DNA from: Hymenobacteraceae bacterium
GTDB lineage: Bacteria; Bacteroidota; Bacteroidia; Cytophagales; Flexibacteraceae
Assembly: GCA_947459175.1 (NCBI GenBank)
Contig: CANHCT010000013.1
Coordinates: forward strand, 1 to 37,100
DNA: 37,100 nt
Direction: 5' to 3'
Positions 4,237 through 19,976 of this stretch are shown here, in pieces. Position 1 is the stretch's first letter, and each line of letters opens with the position of its first letter. The notes beneath the pieces were generated by a model. It ran no database searches, was not told where the DNA came from, and worked only from the letters and a program-made list of their open reading frames with translations. Position numbers and translations under genes: made by a program.

Positions 4237-4307
4237 CCGGTATTCCAATGACAACGCAAACAGGGCATTGATTCCGCTGCGGAAATACAGGGCTGCAGAC
4301 CGTATGC

Positions 4308-5594
4308 CTATACCGGCTGCCGGATTCCGCTGATTGCGGCTACCGACTTTTCGGGCCACAGGTATTTTGCCGCAATCTCCTGCACCTCTGCGGGCCCGGC
4401 TTCCTGAATTCTACGCAGATTCTCAGTGGATTGCGCCAGAGAAATGCCGTAAATCCACAGACTTTTGTAGCGGTCGGCCAGGCCAAAGCAATGGGGAATG
4501 GAGGAAAGGAACTGCCCGGCCATATAATTTTTTACCAGATCGAGCTCTTCTTCCGATACCGGCTCGTTCCTCAAAATTTCGGCCTCTTTGTTGATTTCGG
4601 CAAGGGCTTCTTTTACCACATCTCCCTTAATATCAGCCCCGATAAGCCAGTAAGGTTTCATCAGATTGCCTACCCGGTGAGAAAACACACCGTAAGTCCA
4701 GCCTTTGTCTTCCCGGATGTTGCTCATGAGACGGGAGCCAAAATATCCTCCGTATATCTCCAGAACGAGATTCCAGACGGGCGAATCGGGATGCGTTTTG
4801 GGAATGCTCCATTGCCCGATGCGCAGAGAGGCCTGCTGGGCATCGGCTTTTTCACTCCATATCGCCTGTCCGGTTATTTCGGGAAAAGCATCAGGCGACC
4901 AAAGGGCTTTGCTGCCAATCCCCGAAAAGCCATGAAGCCATTCTTTCCAAAGGGCAATCGAATCGGAACTGATTTTTCCTGCCATTACCAAAAGGGCGGG
5001 ACCCGTTTTTTTCAAAGCTGAAAAACAGGCTTTAAAGTCATCGGTTGAAAAGGAGTCCAGCAATTCTGTATCAAACGAATAGCCGTAATCTGCCTTCGCT
5101 GTGTAGAGTGTCTCCTTCAGCAGGCTTCCTGCCAGGTAGCTGGTTTTCTGCAGGTTAATGGCGTTTTGCTGCCGGGTCGTTTCCTGAATGGTTTTCCATT
5201 CTTTTTCAGGGAAAATGCTGTTTTCCCAAATCTCTTTCCAGATGGCGAGCACCCCGGGCAGCACCCGGCCAAGGCATGAAATCTGAACCGATTCATAATC
5301 GGGGGTATGCAGAACCTCAACTGTGGCGCCCAAAAAAGAAACGGCATCTGCAAGCTGCTTGGCTGTATGCAAAACGGTTCCCTCCAGCAACATTTTGAAG
5401 GTAAACCGCTCCAATTGCCGCTTTCTTGTTTCCAAACCGGAGAAAGGAAAAATCATCTCTACCGATGCAAGACTCTGGCTATCAGAGGCATAAATGGCAA
5501 GTTCGGTACCGCAGGGCATCATTTCTGTCTGCGGTGCAATCAGGTCCGGAATGGTAAGCGGATAACAAACCGGGGCTATGGTTCTGTCGGGCAT
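4308..5594 (-). CDS. M16-family (insulinase-like) protein lacking the zinc-binding HXXEH motif
   Basis: 428 residues, the usual length of a single-chain M16B peptidase with two homologous halves. Where active members have the inverted zinc motif H-x-x-E-H (followed by x-x-x-x-G-T), this protein reads RFTFKMLLEGT around residues 62-72. Both histidines and the glutamate position are lost. The C-terminal half keeps family features: IYGGYFGSRLMSNIREDKGWTYGV (residues ~281-304) with the conserved Arg and Tyr that bind the substrate backbone, and SEEELDLVKNYMAGQF. This resembles the non-catalytic partner of two-subunit M16 enzymes, but no catalytic partner gene is next to it. No signal peptide is seen. 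The start lies 19 bases after the stop of the GH3-family gene, so the two form an operon. It could be a scaffold, a peptide binder or half of a heterodimer whose mate is encoded elsewhere. Confidence 0.87.
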   Translation of the reverse strand: MPDRTIAPVCYPLTIPDLIAPQTEMMPCGTELAIYASDSQSLASVEMIFPFSGLETRKRQLERFTFKMLLEGTVLHTAKQLADAVSFLGATVEVLHTPDYESVQISCLGRVLPGVLAIWKEIWENSIFPEKEWKTIQETTRQQNAINLQKTSYLAGSLLKETLYTAKADYGYSFDTELLDSFSTDDFKACFSALKKTGPALLVMAGKISSDSIALWKEWLHGFSGIGSKALWSPDAFPEITGQAIWSEKADAQQASLRIGQWSIPKTHPDSPVWNLVLEIYGGYFGSRLMSNIREDKGWTYGVFSHRVGNLMKPYWLIGADIKGDVVKEALAEINKEAEILRNEPVSEEELDLVKNYMAGQFLSSIPHCFGLADRYKSLWIYGISLAQSTENLRRIQEAGPAEVQEIAAKYLWPEKSVAAISGIRQPV

Positions 5595-5613
5595 TTTTTT
5601 GAAATGGCTGTAT

Positions 5614-7173
5614 TTATTGTTTTTCGTTTCGGAGGGAATCGATCAGATGCTCAAACTCTTCTACCTGATGGAGTTTCAGCACCCGGGGAAATTTGTTCTG
5701 GCCTCCTATTTTTCCCTTCATTTCCATGTATTTGTAAAAGTACGACAGCGGCAGAACCGACCCGGAGATTTCCCTCAGGGCATGGGTTCTTTCTACCCGG
5801 TAATCGTCGTTGATGATTTTCAGTTTTTCGTCGATGGCCTTGGTGAGTTCTTTCGGGTCGACTTCCTCATCGCAACTGATGAACCACTTGTGTCCGAATA
5901 AATTTCCCGAGCGGATGCCGGCCACAGCAAATTCGGTGATGGTGACATTGAATTCTTCCTGCACCTGGGCAATGGCAGAATTCATATTTTCTACCGAAAG
6001 ATGCTCGCCGCAGAGGCTGATGTAGTGCTTGGTGCGACCGGTAATGATGATTTCGCCCAGTTTTTTGTCTGAAAAGCGGATGACATCGCCAATGAGGTAG
6101 CGCCAGGCACCTGCGCAGGTGCTGATGAGAATGGCATAATCTTTTCCCTCTTCCACCTCGTCGATGAGGAGGGTTTGGGGATTGTTTACCATGTCGCCGT
6201 CGGAGTTGAAATTTTCCTCATTGAAGGGAACGAACTCAAAAAAAATACCGTTGTCGAGCGAAAGTTTCATTCCCCTCGTTTCGGGCCGTGCCTGATAGGC
6301 GATGAATCCCTCTGAAGCAAGATAGGTTTCGAGATAAATAAGCGGCTTGCCCACCAGTTTGTCGAATGCCTTGCGGTAGGGCTCAAAGGAAACGCCGCCA
6401 TGGGCATACACCGAGAAATTCGGCCATATTTCATGGATGTTTTTCAACTGGTAGCGGGCAATGATTTTTTCCAGCAGAATCTGAATCCAAGCGGGCACAC
6501 CGGCAATGCAACCGATGTCCCAATCCCGGGCTTTCTCCACAATTTCATCCAGCTTTTTACTCCAGTCTTTTTCCTGGGCAATGCGGGTGCCAGGCTTGTA
6601 GAAGGGCTGAAACCAAAGAGGAATCTGGCTGGCCTGGATGCCGCTGAGGTCGCCTTCGTAACTTATTCCATTGAAATTGAGGTTGGTAGAGCCGCCCAGC
6701 ATCAAAATTCCTTTTATAAAAAAGTCGCCGGGCAGGTCTTTGAAATACGACAAGGTCAATATCTGGCGGACGCTGGTTTTCTGATTGGCCTTGATCATCT
6801 CCCTCGTGATGGGAATGTGCTTGGAAGCAGCCTCGGAAGTACCCGAACTGAGTGCAAAAAAACGGGTTACCCCGGGCCAGCAAACATTCGGTTCGCCTTT
6901 CAGGGTATGCTTCCACCAGCCATTGAAAATCTGGTTATAGGAATGGGTGGGCACATTGCGAACAAATTGCTTGTATTTGGCTTTGGGGTCGCCGGCTCTG
7001 CGCAAACCCACCATCATATGAAAATTATAGGTCTTTCCGAAACGGGTCTTTTCAGCCTTAACCAACAGATTTTGAAGCACTTTCAACTGCATTTCGATGG
7101 GAGAACTTTTGTCCTTCCGCCTCATTCCCTTCAGCTGAATACCTGTTTTTACCAGTTTGCCTAAAATGTCCAT
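5614..7173 (-). CDS. GH3 auxin-responsive-promoter family protein (acyl-adenylate/amide synthetase-like)
   Basis: 519 residues, the standard length for bacterial GH3 proteins. Recognisable segments are FALSSGTSEAASKHIPIT (ATP-binding P-loop-like S-S-G-T-S), the hinge-region stretch YLIGDVIRF, and IIITGRTKHYISLCGEHLS, all characteristic of the plant GH3/JAR1-like branch of the adenylating superfamily. These enzymes adenylate a carboxylic acid and transfer it to an amine, often an amino acid. Bacterial substrates are mostly unknown, so no substrate is assigned. No signal peptide; cytoplasmic. It is the first gene of an operon with the M16-like protein. A Bacteroidota-type promoter lies 41-73 bases upstream of the start. 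Confidence 0.9.
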   Translation of the reverse strand: MDILGKLVKTGIQLKGMRRKDKSSPIEMQLKVLQNLLVKAEKTRFGKTYNFHMMVGLRRAGDPKAKYKQFVRNVPTHSYNQIFNGWWKHTLKGEPNVCWPGVTRFFALSSGTSEAASKHIPITREMIKANQKTSVRQILTLSYFKDLPGDFFIKGILMLGGSTNLNFNGISYEGDLSGIQASQIPLWFQPFYKPGTRIAQEKDWSKKLDEIVEKARDWDIGCIAGVPAWIQILLEKIIARYQLKNIHEIWPNFSVYAHGGVSFEPYRKAFDKLVGKPLIYLETYLASEGFIAYQARPETRGMKLSLDNGIFFEFVPFNEENFNSDGDMVNNPQTLLIDEVEEGKDYAILISTCAGAWRYLIGDVIRFSDKKLGEIIITGRTKHYISLCGEHLSVENMNSAIAQVQEEFNVTITEFAVAGIRSGNLFGHKWFISCDEEVDPKELTKAIDEKLKIINDDYRVERTHALREISGSVLPLSYFYKYMEMKGKIGGQNKFPRVLKLHQVEEFEHLIDSLRNEKQ

Positions 7174-7213
7174 GTGGTCTGCTCTGTTTGGTTTGAAACG
7201 ATTTTAGTCAGGT

Positions 7214-7246
7214 CAAAAGTAAACTGAAAAAATACGGCAGGGCAAG
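7214..7246 (-). promoter_or_regulatory. Bacteroidota-type promoter for the GH3 - M16 operon
   Basis: On the minus strand TACTTTTG (7214-7221) matches the -7 consensus TAnnTTTG exactly. CTTG (7243-7246), a 3-of-4 match to the -33 TTTG, lies upstream after a 21-base spacer. Transcription would start near 7207, giving a leader of about 34 bases. Predicted by pattern only. Confidence 0.5.
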
Positions 7247-7412
7247 AAATTTTTGAGCTCCCCCATCTCCCGAAAATGCGTATTCGGGTTGCGGGCCTCA
7301 GATTCAGGGCTTTCGGAGAAGTGAAACTCCGGAAAAGCAAAATGGGGGAATCTGAACTTTATCCGTGTTCCCTGTTCAATTTTGATTTGTTTTGACCCGA
7401 ATTTTGCAGGCC

Positions 7413-7943
7413 ATGTTTACAGGCAAATGTGTACTCCTCGACCGCGACGGTGTTCTCAATGAAGAAAAGGGCGACTATGTGTACCGCGATGAAGACTTTA
7501 TCATTCCGGCCGATGTGCCCGAAGGACTGAAAGCCCTGAAGGCGGCCGGATTTGCGCTGGTGGTGGTGACCAATCAGGGTGGCATCAACAAGGGATTGTA
7601 TACCCGGGAAGCGGTGCTGCAGCTCCATGAAAAAATCCAGCAGGCCTGCGATCATTGCCTTGATTATCTGTTGTTTGCACCCTGGCACCGGGAGTTTTCT
7701 CTGAGCCTTTCGAGCAAGCCGGGCTCGCTGATGATGGAGCGGGGTCTGGCCCTGACCCAATCGCTGCCGGAACAAAGCTGGCTCATCGGAGATGCCGAAA
7801 GGGATATGGCAGGCGGAAAAAAAGCAGGGGTGCGCACCATCCTGATTCCCACCCTGAAGGAAACCGAATCGCCACTGGCCGATTTCGTTTGCCCCGATTT
7901 CAAAACTGCGGCTGAGATTATCCTGTGCCATGGAAATCAGTGA
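7413..7943 (+). CDS. HAD-IIIA phosphatase, GmhB/HisB-N-like
   Basis: 176 residues from ATG 7413. An in-frame TTG 21 bases earlier is less likely, because MFTGKCVLLDRDGVLNEE matches where the family begins. HAD motifs are complete: motif I DRDG (Asp10, Asp12), motif II VVVTNQGGI, the motif III lysine in SSKPG, and motif IV GDAERDMAGGKKAG. It should be a cytoplasmic phosphatase of the D-glycero-D-manno-heptose-1,7-bisphosphate 7-phosphatase (GmhB) or histidinol-phosphatase group. Oddly, the Cys/His zinc loop that normally precedes the K-P-G motif (C-x-C-R-K-P) is replaced by HREFSLSLSSKPG, so the structural zinc site is probably gone and the heptose-phosphate assignment is uncertain. No heptose genes are adjacent. 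Confidence 0.85.
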   Translation: MFTGKCVLLDRDGVLNEEKGDYVYRDEDFIIPADVPEGLKALKAAGFALVVVTNQGGINKGLYTREAVLQLHEKIQQACDHCLDYLLFAPWHREFSLSLSSKPGSLMMERGLALTQSLPEQSWLIGDAERDMAGGKKAGVRTILIPTLKETESPLADFVCPDFKTAAEIILCHGNQ

Positions 7944-7950
7944 AGTATAC

Positions 7951-7980
7951 TTTGTTTTTTGCTGAGATGCATTACTTTTG
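7951..7980 (+). promoter_or_regulatory. Bacteroidota-type promoter for the metal-efflux operon
   Basis: TTTG (7951-7954), an 18-base spacer and TACTTTTG (7973-7980) match the -33/-7 consensus TTTG...TAnnTTTG. The expected transcription start, about 7 bases downstream, falls almost on the proposed GTG start codon at 7987, so the message would have little or no leader. Predicted by pattern only. Confidence 0.5.
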
Positions 7981-7986
7981 CTCCCT

Positions 7987-8370
7987 GTGAAGGCCACCAT
8001 CAGCATATTGATTGCCCTCTGGATTCTATCGGGCAGCCTGATGCCGGGGAATGATATGGAAGAGCTGGTTAAAATTCCGGCCCTTTTGCACCATTACCAG
8101 GAACACAAAGCCGTTCATCCGGGCGAGGTACTCAGTTTTTCGGATTTTATTCTGGAGCACTACAGCCAAAAGCCCTGCGACGACAGCAACCACGAAGACC
8201 TGCCTTTTTTCAAGCACAACCTGCCGTGCCTCATTTTTCTGATTCCGAAAATTGAGGTCTCAGCGGAAAAGCCGCCGTTTTGCTGCCTGCTTCCTGTTAT
8301 CCATTCGCCTGAGCCACCCGCTCTGCTCCTCTCCTACTGCGGACAGGTTTGGCAACCCCCGAAAGTCTGA
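7987..8370 (+). CDS. Small exported His/Cys-containing protein at the head of the metal-efflux operon
   Basis: 127 residues from GTG 7987-7989 (M-KATISILIALWIL). A TTG nine bases upstream overlaps the predicted -7 element and is less likely. Residues 1-20 are hydrophobic and look like a signal peptide or membrane anchor, followed by MPGNDMEEL. The mature part has clustered metal-ligand residues: LLHHYQEH, HYSQKPCDDSNHED and FFKHNLPC. From memory it resembles short conserved proteins that sit beside CzcA/CusA operons in Bacteroidota. A periplasmic metal-binding or sensing role is inferred, not shown. It precedes the pump gene by 102 bases on the same strand and probably opens the operon. Confidence 0.7.
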   Translation: MKATISILIALWILSGSLMPGNDMEELVKIPALLHHYQEHKAVHPGEVLSFSDFILEHYSQKPCDDSNHEDLPFFKHNLPCLIFLIPKIEVSAEKPPFCCLLPVIHSPEPPALLLSYCGQVWQPPKV

Positions 8371-8472
8371 GGAAATGACCTTTTGATTTCCAGCTTTTGC
8401 CACCGGCAGAGGTTGAGAAAATCCGGGCCGCCGGCCATTTCCTGTTTCCTTTTTTCATGACTTTTTTCTTCT

Positions 8473-11400
8473 ATGCTTGACCGCATTATTCATTTTTCTA
8501 TTCATAACAAACTGATTGTAGGCCTGTTAAGTCTTGGCCTGGCCATTTGGGGCATTTGGTCGGGACTGCGCCTGCCCATAGATGCCGTACCCGATATTAC
8601 CAACAATCAGGTGCAAGTCATCACCTATTCCCCCTCGCTTTCGCCTCAGGAAGTGGAGCGGTTCATCACCTTTCCTGTAGAAATGAGCTTGTCAAACATC
8701 CCCCAGCTGGTGGAACTGAGGTCCATTTCCCGCTTTGGCCTTTCGGTGGTGACGGCTGTTTTTACCGACGAAACCGATGTGTATTGGGCCAGGCAGCAGG
8801 TTTCCGAAAGATTGGTTTCGGCAGCAGACCAGATTCCGCCCGGGCTCGGAAAACCCGAATTGGGACCCGTCTCTACGGGGCTGAGTGAAATTTTTCAATA
8901 CACCATCGGAGTAAAAAAAGGCTACGAAAACAAGTATTCCCTCAGCGATTTGCGCACCATTCAGGACTGGCAAATCCGAAGGAGCCTGCTGGGCACACCG
9001 GGCCTCGCCGATGTGAGTAGTTTTGGAGGCTATGTAAAACAATATGAGCTGGTTATGGAGCCCGAAAAACTGATGTCAATGGGCATTTCGCCGGTGGACC
9101 TGCTGGATGCCCTCCAAAAAAACAACCAAAACACCGGCGGAGGTTACATTTCCAAAGGAAGCCAGGCATGGTACATCCGAAGCGAAGGCCTGATCCGGGA
9201 CCTGGACGAAATCGGGGAAATCGTAATCAGCCGCAACAAAGCCGGCCTTCCGGTACTCATCCGCGATGTGGCAAATGCACGGTTTGGGCAAGCCGTCCGC
9301 TACGGAGCCATGACCAAAGACGACAAAGGAGAAACGGTGGGCGGCATCGTGCTGATGCTGAAAGGAGAAAACTCAAGGGAGATAAGCCTGCTGGTAGAAA
9401 AACGCATAAGAGAAATTGAAAAAACCCTTCCCGAAGGCCTGGAAATCAAGGTTTTTCTGGATCGCTCCGAACTGATTGACAGGGCCATCAACACCGTAAA
9501 AAACAACCTGCTCGAGGGTGCTCTTATCGTCATTTTTGTATTGGTGCTGATGCTGGGCAACCTCCGTGCGGGCCTCATCGTGGCTTCTGTCATTCCGCTT
9601 TCCATGTTGTTTGCCCTGGCCATGATGAAGCTTTTCGGGGTTTCGGCCAACCTGATGTCGCTGGGCGCCATCGACTTCGGCCTCATTGTGGACGGGGCTG
9701 TCATCATTGTAGAAGCCGGTCTTCACCATGTGGGCCTCGTCTTCCGAACCCAAAAACCAAGTCAGGCAGAGATGGACGAAGAGATATTCCGCTCAGCAAG
9801 CAAGATTCGGAATTCGGCTGCCTTCGGTGAGATGATCATTTTGATTGTATACCTGCCCATTCTCGCCCTTACGGGAATAGAGGGAAAAATGTTTGCCCCT
9901 ATGGCACAGACGGTTGCATTTGCGATAGCCGGGGCTTTCCTGCTTTCACTAACCTATGTTCCCATGATGTCGGCACTGGTGCTGAGCAAGAAGGTCAGCC
10001 ATAAAATCAGTTTTTCGGACAGGCTGATGGCGGGTCTTTTCCGCTTGTATGAACCTGTGCTGTTGTTTAGCCTGAAATTCAAAAAAACACTGATTATCAG
10101 TATGTTTCTGATATTTTTTGCTTCGATTTGGGTTTTCACCCATCTGGGGGGCGAATTTATCCCGAGTCTGGATGAAGGAGATTTTGCGGTAGAAACCCGC
10201 CTTTTGCCCGGCACCTCAATGGATGAAACCATCCGGCAAAGCTTACAGGCAGGAAAAATTCTGAAATCACGGTTCCCCGAAGTAAAAGAGGTAATCGGAA
10301 AAATCGGGACCAGCGAAATTCCCACTGACCCCATGCCCTTTGAGGCCTGCGACCTGATGATTATCCTGAAAAATAAAGAAGAATGGACTTCGGCAAGCAG
10401 CCGGGATGAACTTGCAGAAAAAATGCAGGCTGCCCTGGAGGAAATTCCCGGTACCCAGTTTGGATTTCAGCAGCCCATTCAAATGCGTTTCAATGAGCTG
10501 ATGACAGGTGCCCGGCAGGATGTGGCCATTAAAATTTATGGGGACGATCTGCCGGAACTTGCCAGACTGGGCAAGTTGACGGCAACCGCCATAGAAAAAA
10601 TTGAAGGACTCAAAGATCTGTATCTGGAAAGGGTTACCGGTCTGCCCGAAATGGTAGTCAAAATAAACAGGGAAAAACTGGCCCGCTACAACCTGGATGT
10701 GGATGCCGTAAACCGGGTGATCAATACGGCATTCGCCGGAACAGCCACGGGAAAAATATATGAAGGCGAAAAGCGATTTGATCTGGTGGTCCGGATGGAT
10801 ACCAGCCGAAGAACCGGCATGGAAGACCTGAAAAATCTTTTCATCCAAAATCCTGAAAAACAGAATATTCCGATTTCGGAGCTGGCCGAATTCAGTTTCG
10901 AAGCCGGGCCAAATCAGATCCAGCGGGACAAAACAAAAAGACGGATAACGGTAGCCTTCAATGTGAGGGGCCGGGATGTGGAAAGCATTGTGGCAGAGGT
11001 AAAAAGAGCGATAGCAAACAAAGTGAGCCTTCCACCCGGCTACCATTACGAAATTGGCGGACAGTTCAAGAATCTGGAAGAGGCCAAAGGAAGGCTTTCG
11101 GTTGCGGTGCCGGTGGCCTTATTTCTGATTTTCGTTTTGCTCTATTTCACCTTCCATTCCATTGCCCGGAGTCTGCTGATTTTCTCTGCCATTCCGCTCT
11201 CGGCCATAGGGGGAATTCTGGCCCTTTGGGCCCGGGGTATGCCCTTCAGCATTTCAGCAGGCATTGGCTTCATTGCCTTATTTGGCGTGGCAGTTTTGAA
11301 CGGCATTGTCCTGATGGCTGAATTCAACAACCTGAAAACGAACCGATTCGGCGATACCCGCTCCGTTATTCTGGAGGGAGTAAAAGTCCGGCTGCGGCCC

Positions 11401-12834
11401 GTATTGATGACCGCTTTGGTAGCATCCCTCGGGTTTCTTCCGATGGCATTTTCGGGAGGTGCGGGCGCCGAAGTACAAAAACCCCTGGCCACTGTGGTCA
11501 TAGGAGGATTGGTTTCGGCCACCCTGCTTACCCTGTTCATTTTGCCTGCTCTCTACCTATGGCTGGAAGAAGGGCTGCTGAAAAAAACCAATTCCAAAAC
11601 TGCCTTTATCCTGATTCTTTTGGCCATTGCGGGCAAAACCGCAGTAGCACAGCCAAGAGTGATTTCCAGGAAAGAAGCCCTGGAAGCGAGCAGGGCCCAT
11701 TATCCCGGATTACAGGCCATAAAGGAAAAATTGGAAAGCCAAAAGACCATGAAAGCGACCGCTTCCGATCTGGGAAAAACCAATTTCGGCATTCAGATCG
11801 GGCAATACAACAGCCGGGACCAGGACCAGTATTTTTCCATGAGCCAAAGTTTTCCGCTGCCCGGTGCCATTTCCAGGCTCCGCGAATGGTATGAACAGCA
11901 GGCCATTAGCGGGCAATGGACCCTGAAAAAAGCCGAAGCAGAACTGGACCTGGAAGTAAAAAATGCCTATCAGGAAATGGTTTTCGGTCAGGAGAAAATA
12001 CGGTTCTTGATGCGGCTCGATTCTTTATTCGGACAAGTAAAAAGGGCATCTGAGCTGCGCCTGAGAGCCGGCGAAACCAACGAACTGGAAGCTGCCCTTG
12101 CCGAAAACCAGGCCATGCAGGTCAAAACCCAAATCATGTCGGCCAGAAGCGATTTGAAAATGGCCATGCTGGGCCTGCAAAGTCTGATGCAGGGCAGCGA
12201 CAGCCTGGTGGCAGCAGAAGAAGAAGAAGCAGGGGACATTGCTCTGCCGGAAGGAAGCAAGGAAATGGAATTATGGATTGAAAATCATCCGTTTACACAG
12301 GTTTATAAGCAAGAAGAAAAGGTAGCCCGAAGCTGGGTTCAATACGAAAAAACCAAAATCTGGCCTGAATTTTCTCTGGGCTATTTCAATCAGTCGCTCC
12401 GGGGAACGCCCCTCGAAAACGGAACACTTGCCACCGGGCAAAATCGTTTTCAGGGGGTTTTGGGCACCATTTCCTATCCCCTCTGGCAAAAGCCGGGAAA
12501 GGATAGGATAAAAGCAGGGCAGCAACTCGAAAAAGCCCTGCAGCTGGAAACCCGTACCCAGAAAAACCGCCTCGAAGTGAGGTTGAAAATGGCCATTCAG
12601 GAATGGCAGAAAATGAAAAGGCAGGTGGCTTTTCTGGAGAAAGAAGGCCTCCCCACTGCCCTCCTCATCCGCCGAAACGCCCTCAAAAGTTTTCAGGCCG
12701 GCGACATCGGTTTTTTGGAATTCAGCCAGGCACTGAAAAGAAGTCTGGATACCGAACTGCTTTGGCTTGAATCCCGTCATCAACTTAATTTAAGCAAAAT
12801 CAACATCGAATTTTTCACCTCTCAAAACCTCTGA
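8473..12834 (+). CDS. CzcA/CusA heavy-metal efflux RND transporter fused to a TolC-family outer-membrane factor
   Basis: 1453 residues. Residues 1-~1035 are a complete HME-type RND pump: N-terminal TM helix, LPIDAVPDITNNQVQV, and the proton-relay signature DFGLIVDGAVIIVE with Asp401, Asp407 and Glu414. This is the DFGxxVDxxxxxVE pattern of CzcA-type (Zn/Co/Cd) pumps. The pump ends with the second block of TM helices (FLIFVLLYFTFH to LFILPALYLWLEEG). Residues ~1043-1060 then form a signal-peptide-like hydrophobic stretch ending AVAQ. Residues ~1061-1453 form long amphipathic helices typical of outer-membrane efflux proteins (DLEVKNAYQEMVFGQEK, RAGETNELEAALAENQA). One gene therefore supplies both the inner-membrane pump and the outer-membrane channel. 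Such fusions of about 1450 residues are known in Bacteroidota. The adaptor gene follows 2 bases later. Confidence 0.95.
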   Translation: MLDRIIHFSIHNKLIVGLLSLGLAIWGIWSGLRLPIDAVPDITNNQVQVITYSPSLSPQEVERFITFPVEMSLSNIPQLVELRSISRFGLSVVTAVFTDETDVYWARQQVSERLVSAADQIPPGLGKPELGPVSTGLSEIFQYTIGVKKGYENKYSLSDLRTIQDWQIRRSLLGTPGLADVSSFGGYVKQYELVMEPEKLMSMGISPVDLLDALQKNNQNTGGGYISKGSQAWYIRSEGLIRDLDEIGEIVISRNKAGLPVLIRDVANARFGQAVRYGAMTKDDKGETVGGIVLMLKGENSREISLLVEKRIREIEKTLPEGLEIKVFLDRSELIDRAINTVKNNLLEGALIVIFVLVLMLGNLRAGLIVASVIPLSMLFALAMMKLFGVSANLMSLGAIDFGLIVDGAVIIVEAGLHHVGLVFRTQKPSQAEMDEEIFRSASKIRNSAAFGEMIILIVYLPILALTGIEGKMFAPMAQTVAFAIAGAFLLSLTYVPMMSALVLSKKVSHKISFSDRLMAGLFRLYEPVLLFSLKFKKTLIISMFLIFFASIWVFTHLGGEFIPSLDEGDFAVETRLLPGTSMDETIRQSLQAGKILKSRFPEVKEVIGKIGTSEIPTDPMPFEACDLMIILKNKEEWTSASSRDELAEKMQAALEEIPGTQFGFQQPIQMRFNELMTGARQDVAIKIYGDDLPELARLGKLTATAIEKIEGLKDLYLERVTGLPEMVVKINREKLARYNLDVDAVNRVINTAFAGTATGKIYEGEKRFDLVVRMDTSRRTGMEDLKNLFIQNPEKQNIPISELAEFSFEAGPNQIQRDKTKRRITVAFNVRGRDVESIVAEVKRAIANKVSLPPGYHYEIGGQFKNLEEAKGRLSVAVPVALFLIFVLLYFTFHSIARSLLIFSAIPLSAIGGILALWARGMPFSISAGIGFIALFGVAVLNGIVLMAEFNNLKTNRFGDTRSVILEGVKVRLRPVLMTALVASLGFLPMAFSGGAGAEVQKPLATVVIGGLVSATLLTLFILPALYLWLEEGLLKKTNSKTAFILILLAIAGKTAVAQPRVISRKEALEASRAHYPGLQAIKEKLESQKTMKATASDLGKTNFGIQIGQYNSRDQDQYFSMSQSFPLPGAISRLREWYEQQAISGQWTLKKAEAELDLEVKNAYQEMVFGQEKIRFLMRLDSLFGQVKRASELRLRAGETNELEAALAENQAMQVKTQIMSARSDLKMAMLGLQSLMQGSDSLVAAEEEEAGDIALPEGSKEMELWIENHPFTQVYKQEEKVARSWVQYEKTKIWPEFSLGYFNQSLRGTPLENGTLATGQNRFQGVLGTISYPLWQKPGKDRIKAGQQLEKALQLETRTQKNRLEVRLKMAIQEWQKMKRQVAFLEKEGLPTALLIRRNALKSFQAGDIGFLEFSQALKRSLDTELLWLESRHQLNLSKINIEFFTSQNL

Positions 12835-12836
12835 AA

Positions 12837-14003
12837 ATGAAAACCAACCACCTTCTTATTCTGATTTTTTCAGTCTTTGCCCTTGGGGCCTGCCACCAAA
12901 AGCCGGAGGAAAAGGAAGAAAAAAAACCGGTTCCAAAATCAGGGAGCAACCATCTGTCGCTCAGTGAAGCACAATGGCAACAGTCTGGATTTCAATTCGG
13001 GAAGCCGGAAGTTTCGGAGCTTCCGGGCATTATACAAGTGCAGGGCATTCTGGATGTGCCACCTCAAAATCTATCCTCTGTATCGGCCATGGCCAGCGGA
13101 TTTGTAAAAAAAACCGACCTGCTTCAGGGAACCCATGTGCACAAAGGCGATGTATTGGTTACCCTGCAAAGTCCTGAATTCATCAGCCTTCAGGAAGAAT
13201 ACCTTTCCAACCGGAGCAAACTGGCTTTTCTGGCGCAGGAAGCCGAAAGACAACAGGGTCTGGCCGAAGAAAAAGTAGCCTCAGCCAAATTGTTTCAGCA
13301 GTCCAAATCGGAATATGAAAGCCTGAAAGCCAGGCAAAACGGACTCAGACAAAAACTGAAAATGCTGGGCTTTTCGATACCGGTTCTGGAGAAAGGCGAG
13401 ATACGGTCTGAACTCGAAATCCGCTCTCCGGCCGATGGATATGTAACGGATGTGTTCATCAACCCGGGGAAGTTTATTCAGCCCCAGGACCTGATTTGTG
13501 AAATTGTGAATCCGGAACACCTTCATTCAGAGCTATATGTTTACGAAAAAGACATTTCGCAGATTAAAAACGGACAAAAAATCCGCTTCCATCCCCTTGG
13601 CAAACCCGGGGAAGAGCAGGAAGCCGAGGTTTATCTGATCAGCCGGAAAATCAATGCCGACCGTACAGTACGGGTTCACGGACACCTGAAAAAAGACAAT
13701 CCTTCTTTGATTCCGAACATGGCCATTCAGGCTGTCATTGAGGTAGGAAACCGGAGGGGACTTACCCTTCCGCTCTCTGCTGTGATCAGCTTCGGGGGCG
13801 AAAAATTCGTTTTTGCCGCCAGAAAAGGACAGGGAAAACGGCCCGTATTTGAGAAAATAGTGGTAAAAACAGGAACCGAAACCCGGGATAAAACAGAAAT
13901 CATTTCCTCCGAACCGCAACTCAGGACCAGGGATGAAATTGTAATTTCAGGGGCACACCTTTTGCTTTCGGTGTTGGAAAACAGCGAAGAGGAAGCAGAC
14001 TGA
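12837..14003 (+). CDS. Efflux RND periplasmic adaptor lipoprotein (CzcB/CusB-like)
   Basis: 388 residues beginning MKTNHLLILIFSVFALGAC. The lipobox LGAC places the lipidated cysteine at residue 19. A Lys/Glu/Pro-rich linker (residues ~22-36) is followed by the lipoyl/hairpin core: GFVKKTDLLQGTHVHKGD, a coiled-coil segment (~115-185), then SPADGYVTDVFINPGKFI, and a C-terminal beta barrel ending around residue 380. This is the membrane-fusion subunit that bridges the pump and channel in the periplasm. The start is 2 bases after the stop of the pump-channel fusion, which implies coupled translation. No His-rich metal-binding N-terminus or C-terminal CzcB-specific domain is obvious, so the metal cannot be read from this subunit. 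Confidence 0.93.
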   Translation: MKTNHLLILIFSVFALGACHQKPEEKEEKKPVPKSGSNHLSLSEAQWQQSGFQFGKPEVSELPGIIQVQGILDVPPQNLSSVSAMASGFVKKTDLLQGTHVHKGDVLVTLQSPEFISLQEEYLSNRSKLAFLAQEAERQQGLAEEKVASAKLFQQSKSEYESLKARQNGLRQKLKMLGFSIPVLEKGEIRSELEIRSPADGYVTDVFINPGKFIQPQDLICEIVNPEHLHSELYVYEKDISQIKNGQKIRFHPLGKPGEEQEAEVYLISRKINADRTVRVHGHLKKDNPSLIPNMAIQAVIEVGNRRGLTLPLSAVISFGGEKFVFAARKGQGKRPVFEKIVVKTGTETRDKTEIISSEPQLRTRDEIVISGAHLLLSVLENSEEEAD

Positions 14004-14115: not shown

Positions 14116-15105
14116 TCAGGCCGTTATGACCTCCCGTGATTCTTTTTCTTTGAAGGATTTGCGGGGCTTCAGGTTCAGGGTTTGAAACAATTGCTCATCA
14201 TGATCCACGCCGGGGTTGGGTGTGGTAAGCAGCCTTTCACCGCTGAAAATGGAATTGGCACCTGCCATAAAACAAAGGGCTTGTTCTTCGTCGCTCATCA
14301 TCACCCTTCCTGCCGAGAGCCTCACCATGGCTTTGGGCATCATGATCCGGGCAGTGGCAATCATCCGCACCATGTCCCAAACCGGAACTTTCGGTTGCTT
14401 TTCAAGGGGTGTTCCTTCTACGGGCACAAGCGCATTTACCGGCACCGACTCAGGATGACCGGGCATATTGGCCAAGGTTACAAGCATTTTCACCCGGTCG
14501 AGGTTGGTTTCGCCCATCCCAATGATTCCGCCTGAGCATACTGAAATCCCTGATTTTCTGACATTTTCCAAAGTATGGATTCTGTCGTCGAAGTCCCGGG
14601 TGGTGATGATTTCGTTGTAGAAATCATCGGAGGTATCCAGATTGTGGTTGTAGGCATAGAGTCCTGCATCTTTCAGCTTTTCGGCCTGCGATGCCGTGAT
14701 CATGCCCAGGGTACAGCACACTTCCATATCCATGGCATTTACGCCTTTCACCATGTCGATTACCTTGTCAAAATCGCGGTTGTCGCGGACCTCCCGCCAG
14801 GCTGCGCCCATGCAAAAACGGGTAGAACCTTTGGATTTGGCCTGAGCTGCGGCTTCCAGCACCTCCTCTACCTCCATGAGTTTATGGACCTTTACATCGG
14901 TATGGTAGCGGGCCGCCTGAGGGCAATAAGCGCAATCTTCGGGGCAACCGCCGGTCTTCACCGAAAGAAGGGTACACACCTGAACCTCCTGAGGATCATG
15001 GTTTTGCCGGTGAACGGTAGCAGCCCGGTAAACCAAATCGAGAAAAGGAGCATTGTAAATGGCTTCGGCTTCGGCTATGGTCCAGTTGTGGCGGATGGCA
15101 GTCAT
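14116..15105 (-). CDS. bioB: Biotin synthase
   Basis: 329 residues. The radical-SAM cluster motif C-x3-C-x2-C is present as [12 protein letters not shown] (Cys54, Cys58, Cys61). The ligands of the auxiliary [2Fe-2S] cluster that donates sulfur are also present: Cys98 in [10 protein letters not shown], Cys130/131, Cys190 in [12 protein letters not shown] and Arg262 in [15 protein letters not shown] is another invariant stretch. The enzyme inserts sulfur into dethiobiotin in the cytoplasm. No other bio genes are adjacent, and the metal-efflux operon converges on it with 112 bases between. I saw no BirA operator or riboswitch upstream. The 195 bases before the start are short and T-rich with no clear promoter. 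Confidence 0.97.
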
Positions 15106-15300
15106 TTGGTCAGATGTTTTGCTTGCAAAAAAAGGAAAAAAGGCTTTGAAATGAGAATATTCGGGAAATAAACCTTGGCAGGCCGGTATGGCCTCCTGCT
15201 TCCCGATTTCAATTTGCGAATTATATGAAAAAAGGATGCCCGGATTGGGGGATGCTTCTGAGGCGGGGTGGATGGGAAGGCAGAGGGGAAGCAGAACAAG

Positions 15301-16092
15301 CTAATTGCTCAGAATGTTATGGATTGGTTTTCCAATTCCATTTAAAAGCAACTCCAAATGTCCGCCTGACCTGACGTAACCTATTGTAATTTGGTCAGCA
15401 ATGGTTATCATGATTTGGTTGCGTGTCTGTGCATTTTGACTGCTTACCCGTTTTACCGATTTGTCAAAGGGTGTGATGATGAGCAGTCTGCCTTGTTCCA
15501 ACGGCTCTTCAAATTCGGGTTCTAATTTTCCATTAAGCCCTCTTGCCAATGCCAAAATGATGGGCTGTTTTCCTTTGAGCAAATAATGCAACACATCTTT
15601 TTCTATTTGGCTGTGAAAACCGCTGATAACGCAATTTCCCTTTTCTCTTTGCTCTATTGCCCAATCATAGCATTTCAATATCACCGAAGCAGGCACTTGC
15701 CGGCTGCATAAAAAAGCTGTTTTGGGTAGCCTTAAAAGGTCTGTATTGCCAAGGCTTTCTTTAATAATGGTGTTTTCGGCTCCGCTCAACCACCGCATGG
15801 AATGGTGCGTTTCATTTTTGCATTCTGCCAGGAAGTGTAAATTTTCCGGTTTGTTTTCAATAAGTGCTTCTTTCTTTTTTCTACTCCAGCCTTGTATTTG
15901 TTTTTCTCTGTAAAATGCTTTGTCTATCCTGTTATATTCTTCAAAATATACCAACTGAACGGGAAGTCTTTTTTTTGTGTGATTGGCACCTTTGCCATCT
16001 TGGTGCTCGGCCAGGCGCCGCTCAAGATTTTTGGTACTCCCCACATAATAACTATCATCAGAGCATTTCAATATGTACATATACCCTTTCAT
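15301..16092 (-). CDS. GIY-YIG nuclease fused to a DprA/SLOG-like Rossmann domain
   Basis: 263 residues with two distinct halves. Residues 1-~80 are a GIY-YIG domain: MYIL (5-8), YYVG (15-18), ERRLAEH with Arg25/26 and His30, and YREKQIQGWSR with the metal-binding Glu63. Standalone YhbQ/UPF0213-like proteins end soon after. Here the frame continues through a linker containing Met99. It enters a second domain, residues ~115-262: LPKTAFLCSRQVPASVILK, NCVISGFHSQIEKDVLHYLL, LLIITPFDKSVKRV and a C-terminal Rossmann strand IADQITIGYV. This matches the short DprA-like SLOG proteins of Bacteroidota, normally a separate gene. The join lies near 15796-15830, with no sign of a frameshift. It sits 3 bases after a DUF3293 gene. 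A nuclease guided by a nucleotide- or DNA-binding module is inferred; substrate is unknown. Confidence 0.82.
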   Translation of the reverse strand: MKGYMYILKCSDDSYYVGSTKNLERRLAEHQDGKGANHTKKRLPVQLVYFEEYNRIDKAFYREKQIQGWSRKKKEALIENKPENLHFLAECKNETHHSMRWLSGAENTIIKESLGNTDLLRLPKTAFLCSRQVPASVILKCYDWAIEQREKGNCVISGFHSQIEKDVLHYLLKGKQPIILALARGLNGKLEPEFEEPLEQGRLLIITPFDKSVKRVSSQNAQTRNQIMITIADQITIGYVRSGGHLELLLNGIGKPIHNILSN

Positions 16093-16095
16093 AGC

Positions 16096-16596
16096 TTACT
16101 TTTCTGGAGCCCGGGCTTGAGCGTAGCCGAAACCCGGCTCCACAGAAAGGCCGTTTTCTTTCGGCCAAAATTGTATGGTTGTGTTGCCTTCAAAATCCAG
16201 TGTTTCTATCAGACTGGCTTTCAAGCCCACAGTACCCGCAACGATGGCCCGCTGACCATATTTTCTTCCTAACTCAATTGCCTCTGACAGATTTATTCCC
16301 GGAATAAAAAAGCTCTCTTCAGGCGGCCAAACTCCTTCCGCATCCTGCCCCCTGCCTGAAAAAATTGAATGCGTGCTTAGGTCAGATTTCAACATCTCAT
16401 TCCGGATCTGATTCTCTTTGTCGGAAAGTGGTACAGATAGAGGATTCCATGCTGTGATAAATGCCCAGTTTTGAAAGCCTGAACGAATACAAAACAGATC
16501 GAGTTCAGTATTGATTTGACCAACCTTGATAGGCTTTTCCAATCCATCCACCTGATAATCAGTATTTAAATATGCTTTGATTAAATCCTCTTCCAT
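16096..16596 (-). CDS. DUF3293 domain protein
   Basis: 166 residues. WAFITAWNPLSVPLSDKENQIRNEML and the later IPGINLSEAIELGRKYGQRAIV match the DUF3293 family of small cytoplasmic proteins of unknown function. Family members usually have just this 'AFITA.NP.S.......N...' core. No signal peptide or transmembrane segment. It is the first gene of a two-gene unit: its stop lies 3 bases before the start of the GIY-YIG/SLOG fusion, so the two are likely translated together. The region is AT-richer than bioB and glgB on either side. No function should be assigned. Confidence 0.8.
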   Translation of the reverse strand: MEEDLIKAYLNTDYQVDGLEKPIKVGQINTELDLFCIRSGFQNWAFITAWNPLSVPLSDKENQIRNEMLKSDLSTHSIFSGRGQDAEGVWPPEESFFIPGINLSEAIELGRKYGQRAIVAGTVGLKASLIETLDFEGNTTIQFWPKENGLSVEPGFGYAQARAPEK

Positions 16597-17010
16597 GATT
16601 TATTTTTTTGCTTATCGGTATGTTCTCATGATGATATGGCCAATGTACAGGGTCAGGATTTCAATTTCAAAATTCAATTTGAAAATGCGCCAAAGGCCGG
16701 GAGTTATGCAGTTTTCGCAAAAACCGATTTCCTGTCTTTTTCTGATGCTTCCTGAGGCATCCCAAACATGGCACTAAATTGTCGGGCAGTTTTCAAATTT
16801 TTAAGAATCCAAATAATTGACTCTCAGGGATTTTTTTTCGAAAAAGGGCTCCTGGCAATAGGGAAGGCAAGGCCAAATACCCTTTTACTTTTTTGAATCG
16901 GGAAGGCATATTTCCCAAACTATTGGGCTGGTGTTTGTACTTCGACAGAAAAAAAATTGGGGTTTTGCTGTGAAAGCTCTATTTTTAAATTCAGATTTAA
17001 ACTAAAAATT
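16597..17010. other. AT-rich divergent intergenic region
   Basis: 414 bases between the divergent DUF3293 gene and the small basic protein gene. No credible coding frame was found on either strand. It must hold the promoters for both units, but I found no exact TAnnTTTG -7 element. TATTTTTA at 16980-16987 is the nearest match ahead of the plus-strand pair, 23 bases from its ATG. No hairpin or repeat stands out. Confidence 0.5.
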
Positions 17011-17271
17011 ATGGCAACCAATCAGGGCAATTCCTCAAGAAAGGGCGCAATCCGGTCCAGAAGCCAATTTTTTAATCCTTCAACAGGGCATTACATAAAA
17101 AGAGATTCCAGTAACGGTCACTTTTTAGATGTTAAAGCCGACGGTGAAAAATTCAAAGGGGTAAGGATTGAGAAAGCCCAGGCCAAAGCCAATCCCAATA
17201 TATCAAAGGATCAAGCCATTAAAGCAGAAATGGCAGTGGTATCAGTGCTCAACAAAACAAAGCAAGCATGA
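17011..17271 (+). CDS. Small basic protein paired with a TIR-like gene
   Basis: 86 residues from ATG 17011. A TTG-initiated extension 54 bases upstream is rejected because the homologous-looking core starts later and the extension is AT-driven. The sequence is Lys/Arg-rich with a central block FFNPSTGHYIKRD, then GHFLDVKADGEKFKGVR, and a short C-terminal helix. From memory this block recurs in small hypothetical proteins of many bacteria. I know no function. There is no signal peptide or membrane segment. Its stop overlaps the next start as ATGA (17268-17271), which points to strict coupling with the TIR-like protein, as in toxin-antitoxin or effector-partner pairs. That role is inference. 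Confidence 0.75.
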   Translation: MATNQGNSSRKGAIRSRSQFFNPSTGHYIKRDSSNGHFLDVKADGEKFKGVRIEKAQAKANPNISKDQAIKAEMAVVSVLNKTKQA

Positions 17272-17888
17272 GCAAAAACATTCCCGACTACCACCTGAAT
17301 GTTTTCATTAATTGCCCTTTTGACCCAAAATTTCAACCACTTTTCAGAGCTATGGTTTTTACCATTCAATACTGTGGCTTCATTCCCAGATGTGCTTTGG
17401 AAACAGCAGGTTCAGATGGAATCCGGATTGCCAAAATCATAGGCATAATAAGGGAGTGCGCGTTGGGAATTCATGATTTATCCCGGACCGAGCTCAATCA
17501 AAATCAACTTCCCCGATTCAATATGCCTTTGGAATTAGGCATTTTTATGGGTGCCAAGCATTTAGGCAAAGGTGTTCAAACCCAAAAAAAATACCTGATA
17601 CTGGACAAAGCCCATTTTCGGTTTAAAGAATATGTTTCAGATGTAAGTGGGCAGGATATCGCATCTCACAATGGAAAAATTCAGGGTATAATCAAAGCCT
17701 GCAGAGATTGGTTGAGTCACTGCACAGGTGGAAGAAAGTTGGACGGATACAATTACATTTTTAAAAAATATTCTGATTTCAAAAAATTACTGCCTGATTT
17801 TTGTTCGGAGAACAATTGGAAAGAATCTGATTTACAATTTAATGAGTTTACCTCATTGGCAGCAAACTATATCAACGCTTCAAAATAA
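17268..17888 (+). CDS. TIR/nucleoside-deoxyribosyltransferase-like protein
   Basis: 206 residues. VFINCPFDPKFQPLF (12-26) forms the first Rossmann strand and loop. MVFTIQYCGFIPRCALE (29-45) is the next helix and strand, ECALGIHDLSRTE (63-75) another strand, and RFNMPLELGIFMGAK (83-97) carries Glu89 in the position of the catalytic glutamate of TIR and nucleoside 2-deoxyribosyltransferase folds. A second part, residues ~105-200, contains the LILDKAHFRFKEYVSDVSGQD segment and is not recognised beyond this family. Such proteins may cleave NAD or nucleotides, or bind them. Neither is demonstrated here. The gene overlaps the small basic protein gene and ends before glgB, which it converges on. Together they form a compact two-gene module in AT-rich DNA. 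Confidence 0.75.
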   Translation: MSKNIPDYHLNVFINCPFDPKFQPLFRAMVFTIQYCGFIPRCALETAGSDGIRIAKIIGIIRECALGIHDLSRTELNQNQLPRFNMPLELGIFMGAKHLGKGVQTQKKYLILDKAHFRFKEYVSDVSGQDIASHNGKIQGIIKACRDWLSHCTGGRKLDGYNYIFKKYSDFKKLLPDFCSENNWKESDLQFNEFTSLAANYINASK

Positions 17889-17895
17889 ATATTCT

Positions 17896-17913
17896 GCCAA
17901 TACCATTATTGGC
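17896..17913. terminator. Hairpin between converging genes
   Basis: GCCAATA (17896-17902) and TATTGGC (17907-17913) form a perfect 7-bp stem with a 4-base loop, 8 bases after the TIR-like gene's stop. There is no U-tract, so it may be a weak or factor-assisted terminator, or chance. Confidence 0.35.
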
Positions 17914-17972
17914 CTGAACCGCCTGAAATAATTTAATCTCAAATTCCCTGAGAAAATCAAAGCCCGCTACCC

Positions 17973-19976
17973 TCACACCGGCCCCAAAACCAATGCCGTC
18001 CTGTTGGTAAGGTACAGGCTCATTTTGTTGTCGTCGAAGGTAAAGTGATCCACATGGGGCGTATGGCGTGAAAATCCTCCGAATTCCTCGTCGTCCGAAT
18101 TCAGCAAAACCCGGAACGAACCCGGCCCCGGCAAATGAAAAGCATAATCAGTCAGGCTTTTTTCGGGATGAAAATTGAAAGCAAAAATCAAACCCTTCCG
18201 CATGAAAATCAGGACTTTATTTTGATTGTCGATGTGGATTTCTTTGGCAAATTTATCCTGTAAAACGCCCTTGCTTTGCAGCAGTTCTACCATGGCCCGG
18301 TCGAAATCGAGCAGGTAATGGTATTTCAGATGGCCGGCTTCAGAAAGGCTCCACTGCCGCCGGGCATACTGATAGCTCCAGTCGTTGCCGGCACGGGGAA
18401 AATCAATCCATTCAGGATGACCAAATTCGTTGCCCATGAAGTTGAGGTAGCCATCGCCCCCTGCCGCCGCTGTTATCAGCCGGATCATTTTATGAAGGGC
18501 TATTCCCCTGTCAATGATGAAGTTATCCAACTGCTTGGACATATAGCCGTACATCTCTGCCCCCATCAGCCGGAAGGCAATGGTCTGGTCTCCCACCATC
18601 GCCTGGTCGTGGCTTTCGGCGTAAGCAATGGTTTTTTCGTCGTAGCGGCGGTTGGTGAGCATGCTCCAAAGGTCATACATATTCCAGGCCTCATCTGCCT
18701 GCTCTTTGATGATGCGGATCCAGAAATCAGGAATGCCCATGCCCAGGCGGAAATCGAATCCCACGCCACCGTTTTGTTGACTTTGGCCCAAACCGGGCAG
18801 GCCGCTTACATCTTCGGCAATGGTGATGCAGCCGGGCTTCACCTCATGGGCCACATCGTTGGCCAATTGCAGATACAGGTAGGCATCGGCATCAATCACA
18901 TGGTTGTAATAACTTGCCAAACCATCGAAACTGTAACCCAGGCCATGATGATGGTAAAGCATGGAGGTGACCCCGTCGAAACGAAATCCGTCAAACTGAA
19001 ACTCCTCAAGCCAGTACCGCACATTGCTAAGCAAAAACTGCTGCACTTCCGGCTTTCCATAATCAAAAATTTTGGAATCCCAGGAGGGATGGTTGCCCCT
19101 TTCCCCTTGCCGGAAATATTGATGATCGGTCCCGTCAAACTCATTCAGGCCCTCAAAAATGTTTTTAACTGCATGAGAATGAACAATATCCATAATCACC
19201 GCCATGCCCATGCCGTGGGCAGCATCCACCAGTTCTTTTAGTTCTTCGGGGGTGCCAAAGCGGGAACTGGGTGCATAAAAACCCGATACATGATAGCCGA
19301 ATGACCCGTAATACGGATGCTCCTGTATGGCCATCAACTGCACACAATTGTAGCCGGCTTTTTTGATGCGGGGAAGAATGTGGTCTTTAAACTCCCTGTA
19401 GGAACCGGTGCGGGCTTCTTCCTGTGCCATGCCGGTATGCGATTCGTAAATAAAAAGGGGCTTTTCCGGATCAGGACGGAACTTATTTTTAAATGTATAA
19501 GGCCTGGAAGGCGACCAGATCACACCGGCAAAATCTTTGGTGGCTTCATCCTGAATGGCATAGCGGATGTAGGCCGGTATCCGATCGAGGGTGCCGTTTC
19601 GGGCATGTACAATCACTTTTACCTTCTGTCCATGCTTCAGGGACTGAGGGTCAGAATCCTTTATTTCGATTTCCCAGATGCCATCCTGATTTTTGGCCAT
19701 GGGGTGGCTTTCCTTGTTCCAGTTGTTGAAATCGCCGGAAAGCCAAAGCTGATACGCACCGGGTGCCCACTCCCGGTAAATCCAGCTTTTATTTTTCTTA
19801 TCCCGCTGAAAACCAAAGAATTCATATGCTTTACTAAACCGATCCAAAGACCCGTATGCATCCTGAATGTAGGTTTTCATCCCCAGATAGCGATAATGCA
19901 AATCGGATATTTCCCTTGCAAAGGGCATCAGATCGGGGTTGTCCAACAGGAGGGGAAGGGTGGGTTTTACCATCAT
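17973..19976 (-). CDS. glgB: 1,4-alpha-glucan branching enzyme, eukaryote-like GH13_8 type
   Basis: 667 residues. Residues ~60-165 are a CBM48-like N-terminal domain (YREWAPGAYQLWLSGDFNNW). The GH13 barrel follows, with VIMDIVHSHAV (~259-270), the nucleophile Asp334 in GFRFDGVTSMLY, the acid/base Glu388 in TIAEDVSG and the transition-state Asp457 in AESHDQ. A C-terminal all-beta domain ends the protein. The spelling GFRFDGVTSMLYHHHG and the short N-terminus resemble the eukaryotic and plant GH13_8 branch rather than the classical bacterial GlgB (GH13_9). The enzyme introduces alpha-1,6 branches into glycogen in the cytoplasm. No other glg gene is adjacent. Either of two consecutive ATG codons (19976 or 19973) could start it. 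Confidence 0.95.
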   Translation of the reverse strand: MMVKPTLPLLLDNPDLMPFAREISDLHYRYLGMKTYIQDAYGSLDRFSKAYEFFGFQRDKKNKSWIYREWAPGAYQLWLSGDFNNWNKESHPMAKNQDGIWEIEIKDSDPQSLKHGQKVKVIVHARNGTLDRIPAYIRYAIQDEATKDFAGVIWSPSRPYTFKNKFRPDPEKPLFIYESHTGMAQEEARTGSYREFKDHILPRIKKAGYNCVQLMAIQEHPYYGSFGYHVSGFYAPSSRFGTPEELKELVDAAHGMGMAVIMDIVHSHAVKNIFEGLNEFDGTDHQYFRQGERGNHPSWDSKIFDYGKPEVQQFLLSNVRYWLEEFQFDGFRFDGVTSMLYHHHGLGYSFDGLASYYNHVIDADAYLYLQLANDVAHEVKPGCITIAEDVSGLPGLGQSQQNGGVGFDFRLGMGIPDFWIRIIKEQADEAWNMYDLWSMLTNRRYDEKTIAYAESHDQAMVGDQTIAFRLMGAEMYGYMSKQLDNFIIDRGIALHKMIRLITAAAGGDGYLNFMGNEFGHPEWIDFPRAGNDWSYQYARRQWSLSEAGHLKYHYLLDFDRAMVELLQSKGVLQDKFAKEIHIDNQNKVLIFMRKGLIFAFNFHPEKSLTDYAFHLPGPGSFRVLLNSDDEEFGGFSRHTPHVDHFTFDDNKMSLYLTNRTALVLGPV

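Follow-up and report, generated by a model that had tools for sequence, protein, structure and literature searches.

A stand-alone TIR-like protein with a small basic upstream partner in a Hymenobacteraceae bacterium suggests an infection-triggered NAD-cleaving module

The window analyzed here, that is, the whole 37,100-nucleotide stretch of contig CANHCT010000013.1 from a Hymenobacteraceae bacterium (assembly GCA_947459175.1), contains two overlapping genes on the forward strand. The original prediction, made from the sequence alone, described an 86-aa protein followed by a 206-aa TIR/deoxyribosyltransferase-like protein, and both open reading frames (ORFs) were confirmed as real. The features of the pair are as follows.

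17011..17271, forward strand: gene of the small basic partner (ORF, 86 aa, pI 10.3)
17011..17175, forward strand: PDC-S38 domain, residues 1-55 of the small partner (PADLOC PDLC05010, E 8.9e-26; modelled as a beta-meander)
17176..17268, forward strand: C-terminal extension, residues 56-86 of the small partner, comprising a linker and a predicted helix at residues 66-84; candidate TIR-docking tail
17268..17271, forward strand: ATGA overlap joining the small gene stop and the large gene start (sequence)
17268..17888, forward strand: gene of the stand-alone TIR-like protein (ORF, 206 aa; homologues; TIR profile match)
17286..17723, forward strand: TIR core aligned to PF10137, residues 7-152 (hhalign; AlphaFold model)
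17532..17534, forward strand: GAA codon of the candidate catalytic Glu89 (E of FNMPLELG), invariant in 24 homologues
17748..17882, forward strand: C-terminal helical part, residues 161-205 (AlphaFold helices 161-181 and 191-205; no known sensor domain)

The small protein is basic, as had been described, and the VFINCPFDP motif noted at the start of the larger protein occupies residues 12-20. An alternative upstream start of the small ORF is possible in principle (TTG at 16957); other PDC-S38 proteins align from an M-A-x-N start equivalent to that of the 86-aa protein. Neither protein was matched by any Pfam or NCBIfam model above cutoff, and scans of the surroundings for Rfam families, tRNAs, promoters and repeats returned nothing informative. 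The fixed stoichiometry once read from the ATGA overlap does not follow from it.

The base composition of the module differs from that of its surroundings. GC content, taken in 600-base windows, is approximately 39-41% over 16.3-18.1 kb, whereas the flanks reach 47-52%. At third codon positions it amounts to 0.38-0.40, compared with 0.50-0.60 in bioB, glgB and the gene of HlyD. Both differences would fit DNA acquired by horizontal transfer. The flanks are housekeeping genes, identified by Pfam as biotin synthase (bioB), AsmA, GH3 and HlyD, together with a gene that we take from its sequence to be glgB (glycogen branching enzyme); the TIR pair therefore forms an islet rather than part of a defence island. 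This low-GC segment between bioB and glgB (15100-18100, 39-44%) is probably a small acquired islet and holds a GIY-YIG/SLOG-like gene, a DUF3293 gene and the TIR pair. The first of these, the reverse-strand ORF at 15301-16092, carries a GIY-YIG nuclease domain at residues 2-74 (PF01541, E 3.7e-18) and a DprA/SLOG-like part at about residues 114-238 (PF02481 below cutoff; PADLOC PsyrA, E 5e-10). Among the matches listed from 297 genomes of the phylum these halves are separate proteins, so that the ORF is either a rare fusion or a joined pair. The position of a predicted SLOG-like fold close to the TIR gene is suggestive.

To assign the larger protein, profiles were compared using 18 PF10137 (CAP12/Pycsar TIR) and 9 PF05014 (deoxyribosyltransferase) sequences collected from the same phylum. 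Alignment to PF10137 by hhalign reached a probability of 95.7% (E 8e-9), was collinear over residues 7-152 and placed RFNMPLELGIFMG on ARQNVVLELGYFM, whereas the PF05014 profile received a probability of 0.3%. Asn85 and Glu89 fall on the Asn and Glu columns that are invariant in 18/18 PF10137 sequences. The predicted TIR relationship was thereby upheld, and a deoxyribosyltransferase identity was rejected on the same profile comparison. The 206-aa protein alone matched no Pfam or PADLOC effector model; 10 of 24 homologues matched PF10137 below its gathering cutoff of 24.7 bits (best E 0.003, best score 17.9 bits), and three of the 24 matched the PADLOC 'Effector TIR' model. As no score exceeded the cutoff, the protein is related to PF10137 rather than a member of the curated Pfam family.

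The AlphaFold model of the 206-aa protein (pLDDT 79.9, pTM 0.82; below 50 in pLDDT at residues 76-85 and 116-131) displays a TIR-like beta-alpha order followed by two C-terminal helices. In the structural comparison that had been proposed for this protein, the top PDB matches by Foldseek were SPARTA TIR-APAZ chains, together with some deoxyribosyltransferases/N-glycosidases (2a0k, 6qai, 4jel), but none fell below E 1e-3. All had E >= 4e-3 and TM 0.40-0.50, so the fold match by itself is moderate. At the level of sequence profiles, the large protein is TIR-like, belonging to a CAP12/Pycsar-related branch and not to the deoxyribosyltransferases, and it represents an unnamed branch within a family of TIR enzymes whose role in the antiviral immunity of bacteria is known. 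A 2026 preprint describes PF10137 TIRs as one clade, likens them to TIR-STING (NAD+ depletion via a catalytic glutamate) and reports Glu-dependent, NAD-linked toxicity for one member (PMC13142454).

Homologues of the large protein were found in 35 of the 396 genomes of the phylum (9% of those sampled). They also occur on 17 plasmids, each of them from alphaproteobacteria, and on 11 viral contigs, with none in any phage record searched. The closest homologue is L032 (73%), and the window genome itself carries a second copy that is 42% identical to the 206-aa protein; this copy (L106:1368-2177, G000:C177) has a DUF2188 partner and offers a natural internal comparison. Across 24 aligned homologues, F13, N15, C16, P17, D19, F31, R53, H69, D70, R83, N85, M86, P87, E89, G91, S124, D125 and F171 are invariant, in line with the earlier proposal of Glu89 as the candidate catalytic residue. 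Some homologues contain internal stops or are split (L006, L011, L029); the window copy is an intact ORF that retains all conserved residues.

A small gene upstream is a near-constant feature of the family. When a partner was defined as a 45-130-aa ORF ending -20 to +40 nt from the large gene start, with the same definition applied to controls, one was present in 38/44 non-redundant homologues versus 7/79 control genes (Fisher P 2e-18), with a median gap of 1.5 nt. All 38 partners have a pI of at least 9.26, a range (9.25 and above) reached by 57% of background small ORFs (P 4e-10), a background that includes non-genes. The six exceptions comprise two FGE-domain fusions, one contig end (L032, with no PDC-S38 in the 94 upstream bases available) and three homologues lacking such an ORF; two of these three, L114 and L117, are preceded by a gene whose product looks like a classical TIR protein. 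One FGE fusion context deserves description in its own right. The L086 region 3823-13705 is a diversity-generating retroelement, with a template repeat at 7385-7512 and variable repeats at 6801-6928 and 13568-13694 that show 12 and 19 mismatches, all at template adenines; ORF 7439-8752 looks like a reverse transcriptase. It targets a pair of large genes that, from the look of their sequences, are DUF4062-like/FGE; a member of the TIR family fused to an FGE domain is located between the two. Action of the retroelement on the TIR family was considered and rejected, the mutagenised copies in L086 being the DUF4062-like/FGE genes.

The type of partner differs between clades. A phylogeny built from 44 proteins contains a 19-member clade (support 99/97) whose partners are all DUF2188 proteins; Pfam confirmed those submitted to it (E 3.7e-12 and 6.7e-25), and the others were recognised by their sequence. 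The clade of the window protein has varied partners, namely PDC-S38 (only here), DUF2188 (L123, E 9.4e-14), Lys/Ala-rich proteins and other unnamed ones. The DUF2188 of the window-genome paralogue pair is the only one found in that genome, and DUF2188 proteins in Klebsiella plasmid records H53-H66 match the whole DUF2188-plus-tail partner of L123 at 35% identity. Among the 396 genomes of the phylum, PDC-S38 was found in 20 and the larger protein in 35, both occurring only in the window genome (G000) and G275, and the two are adjacent only in this window. PDC-S38 as an obligatory partner of this TIR family was accordingly rejected. The expectation that the two genes would co-occur elsewhere thus failed for the exact pair and held for the general plan, in which homologues nearly always carry a small basic partner. 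A near-universal small basic upstream partner drawn from exchangeable families is the rule of this TIR family.

The small partner in the window had been described as lacking a known function, which needs amending: residues 1-55 correspond to the PADLOC candidate PDC-S38, found beside defence genes elsewhere. The match is full-length, covering positions 1-57 of the 57-position model, and the AlphaFold strands lie at residues 14-53. Across the loci surveyed (L066-L085, L232-L261), PDC-S38 mostly stands alone, with a length of about 56 aa, and its sequence is highly conserved, strikingly so at R10, G12, R17, Q19, G36, K42 and FKGV; it occurs in prophage-like contigs, on plasmids and beside CBASS/Pycsar genes with capP/RmrA-type regulators. 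We found no literature on PDC-S38, and no relevant literature linking DUF2188 to a toxin or to defence. Searching for the fold of the small protein yielded nothing useful, nor did querying PDB sequences with PDC-S38 or DUF2188, and the small protein, used as a single query sequence, had no match among the viral contigs.

The remainder of the 86-aa protein sets it apart from its relatives. Other PDC-S38 proteins seen stop within about 8 residues of the FKGVRKE motif, and the extension of about 30 aa occurs only in the window protein, where it is modelled with low confidence (pLDDT 57-67). Partner tails within the same clade look alike: RGFSVQRLEKAI, RFSQSEIRQAVV and GLSRDKVAKAID resemble the NISKDQAIKAEM of the window. 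A first motif test appeared overwhelming (153 vs 102 +/- 5, 12 shuffles), and scores of 142-153 were then compared with nulls of 91 +/- 10 and 99 +/- 9 from more shuffles and natural basic tails. After redundancy reduction the significance fell to P ~0.01 against natural basic tails and ~0.03 against shuffles, so that the strong claim of a shared tail was dropped and the likeness is only suggestive. Taken by itself, the tail of the window protein scores within the top 1.2% when set against 167 controls. The resemblance offers a lead, short of proof, toward a TIR-binding tail.

Both halves of the pair keep company with defence genes in other genomes. For PDC-S38, genes within about 3 kb were examined at 20 loci of the phylum, from 19 genomes besides that of the window; among these 129 proteins, PADLOC matched capP (12), RmrA (11), PycC (5), PycTM (5) and CBASS cyclase (4), none of which appeared among 106 proteins from control regions that were comparable in size and for the most part taken from those genomes, where only scattered single matches were seen. 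In L076, the PDC-S38 gene ends 3 nt before a gene that, from its sequence appearance, reads like a TIR protein. The 131 proteins neighbouring the large family match Lamassu, Thoeris, Hma, AbiE, Pycsar and other models, with 143 models matched in total vs 17 in the control set, although defence models overlap and 143 is therefore not a gene count. Viral contig L127 carries a Thoeris-type cluster (2429-7364) made up of two ThsB genes, two ThsA genes with macro domains and one TIR-TM gene. A DUF2188 and TIR-like pair of the family is embedded in it, with ThsB-type and macro-domain ThsA genes on its two sides; upstream there is another ThsA, and downstream the TIR-TM gene. The proposed proximity to defence genes therefore holds for the family and for PDC-S38 elsewhere, but not for the window pair with its housekeeping flanks, and on balance the defence role first suggested for the pair is likely. 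A search of the window genome (assembly 95.65% complete) for PycC or SMODS cyclases found none, which makes a CBASS/Pycsar effector role for the window copy unlikely.

Based on these observations, we propose that the pair is a compact two-gene anti-phage (abortive-infection) module composed of a TIR NADase and a dedicated small regulator, a reading to which we assign slightly less than an even chance. Once active, the 206-aa TIR protein would cleave NAD+ using Glu89. The co-translated small basic protein would regulate it, with the PDC-S38 beta-domain joined to a C-terminal helix that docks on the TIR. In a healthy cell, the partner would most likely prevent TIR assembly, blocking self-association in trans much as terminal extensions of ThsB have been proposed to do in macro-type Thoeris until infection (PMC11204291). 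Upon infection, the partner might be lost or sequestered, or its basic N-terminal domain might bind a phage component, so that the TIR would be freed or clustered, NAD+ would fall and phage growth would stop. What we infer here is that the large protein acts as an NADase, that the two proteins bind each other, that the small one inhibits rather than activates, and that the window copy works against phages; the sign of control and the trigger are the weakest steps. Against the module reading, PDC-S38 is usually found without any TIR and without a tail. Extended to the family as a whole, the proposal would describe a widespread, unnamed group of stand-alone TIR NADases gated by interchangeable small basic proteins, whose N-terminal module (PDC-S38, DUF2188 and others) would be swapped while, in one clade, a shared C-terminal helix would maintain contact with the TIR; we regard this generalization as doubtful.

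The sign of control could be the reverse, with the small protein acting as a sensor and activator whose basic N-terminus binds an infection cue, such as nucleic acid or a protein of the phage, and whose tail nucleates TIR assembly, switching on NAD+ cleavage. The uniformly basic character of the 38 partners is as expected of nucleic-acid binders, the variation of N-terminal modules at a fixed position is as expected of swapped sensors, and PDC-S38, when it accompanies CBASS/Pycsar genes, brings along no toxin. Small-then-large gene order with an overlap is, however, usual for toxin-antitoxin systems, and neither a known ligand nor a fold was found for PDC-S38 or DUF2188; we consider activation unlikely.

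Production of a signal nucleotide from NAD+ by the TIR for a separate effector, in a ThsB-like manner and with the small protein as an accessory, appears quite improbable. The family pair within the macro-ThsA Thoeris cluster of L127 and the SLOG/DprA-like gene within about 1 kb in the window are in its favour. On the other hand, no ThsA was found beside the pair, nor in the window genome with PDLC00413 or PF18185, models that were silent in control genomes too, and other homologues have no constant third gene beside them. We judge it similarly improbable that the pair is a mobile or decayed remnant, acquired and silent, with the PDC-S38-plus-tail protein a chance fusion. Low GC amid housekeeping genes, a PDC-S38 fusion seen only here and stop-containing or split homologues would fit such decay, yet both window ORFs are intact with every conserved residue kept, and the window tail scores among the best 1.2% of controls. 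Least probable is a metabolic nucleoside/nucleotide N-glycosidase or deoxyribosyltransferase with an incidental small gene, an idea that accords with several of the Foldseek matches and with the housekeeping surroundings but is opposed by the profile probabilities, the patchy distribution, the occurrence on plasmids, the defence neighbours and the partner in 38/44 homologues.

Returning to the preferred reading, a regulated NAD-cleaving module, the fold class, the idea of TIR-based immunity and the listing of PDC-S38 as a defence candidate were already known. In the open-access literature, we found no description of the family, its separation from deoxyribosyltransferases, the exchangeable-partner rule or the chimeric partner. 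The analysis places an unannotated family, present in sampled genomes of the phylum, on plasmids and on proviral contigs, in the TIR immune superfamily, and the gene layout of this family suggests a module that would cleave NAD upon infection under the control of a small regulator of its own. The combination of one TIR with one exchangeable small basic upstream partner provides a concrete and cheap test for DUF2188 and PDC-S38. If the proposal is true, TIR control would need no cyclic nucleotide, no ThsA and no Argonaute, the family would amount to a TIR-based toxin/immune switch of modular build that stands apart from CBASS, Pycsar, Thoeris and SPARTA, and PDC-S38 and DUF2188 would gain a function as leader regulators of defence effectors.

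Compared with known systems, the large protein most resembles the CAP12/Pycsar TIRs (PF10137; TIR-STING/Cap12 of CBASS and PycTIR), with which it shares a collinear TIR core, the invariant Asn and Glu (R.N...E.G.F.G) and an SD..G after the last core strand. Unlike these effectors, it consists of only 206 aa without a cyclic-nucleotide-binding domain, no cyclase gene was found near the pair or in the genome, and its family has its own invariant NCPFD and HD motifs. In SPARTA (TIR-APAZ with pAgo), only the TIR part is comparable, the matched chains measuring 371-452 aa, and no pAgo-sized unassigned ORF lies next to the window pair. Thoeris (ThsB TIR and ThsA) also employs a small TIR protein, and one homologue with its DUF2188 partner sits inside a macro-ThsA cluster; in contrast, the window pair lacks ThsA and has a small basic partner instead, and the large protein showed no profile similarity to the two L127 ThsB sequences, a weak test with single sequences.

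On the side of the partner, PDC-S38 elsewhere is a bare protein of about 56 aa, whereas that of the window has a 30-aa extension and heads a TIR gene. In the sister clade, as in the paralogue of the window genome, the place of the partner is taken by DUF2188 (PF09954), which has no sequence match to PDC-S38. Sofic-AS1, an anti-phage FIC toxin with a small antitoxin neighbour (PMC12249575), likewise couples a defence effector to a small neighbouring neutraliser, although its effector is a FIC AMPylase, its antitoxin gene lies downstream and the sequences are unrelated. Finally, as in type II toxin-antitoxin systems, a small gene is adjacent and coupled to a larger one (the ATGA overlap here; a partner in 38/44 homologues). 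The low-confidence model of the small protein shows an N-terminal domain and a C-terminal segment, the similarity of this segment to other tails carrying P ~0.01-0.03. A toxin-antitoxin role of the pair is possible.
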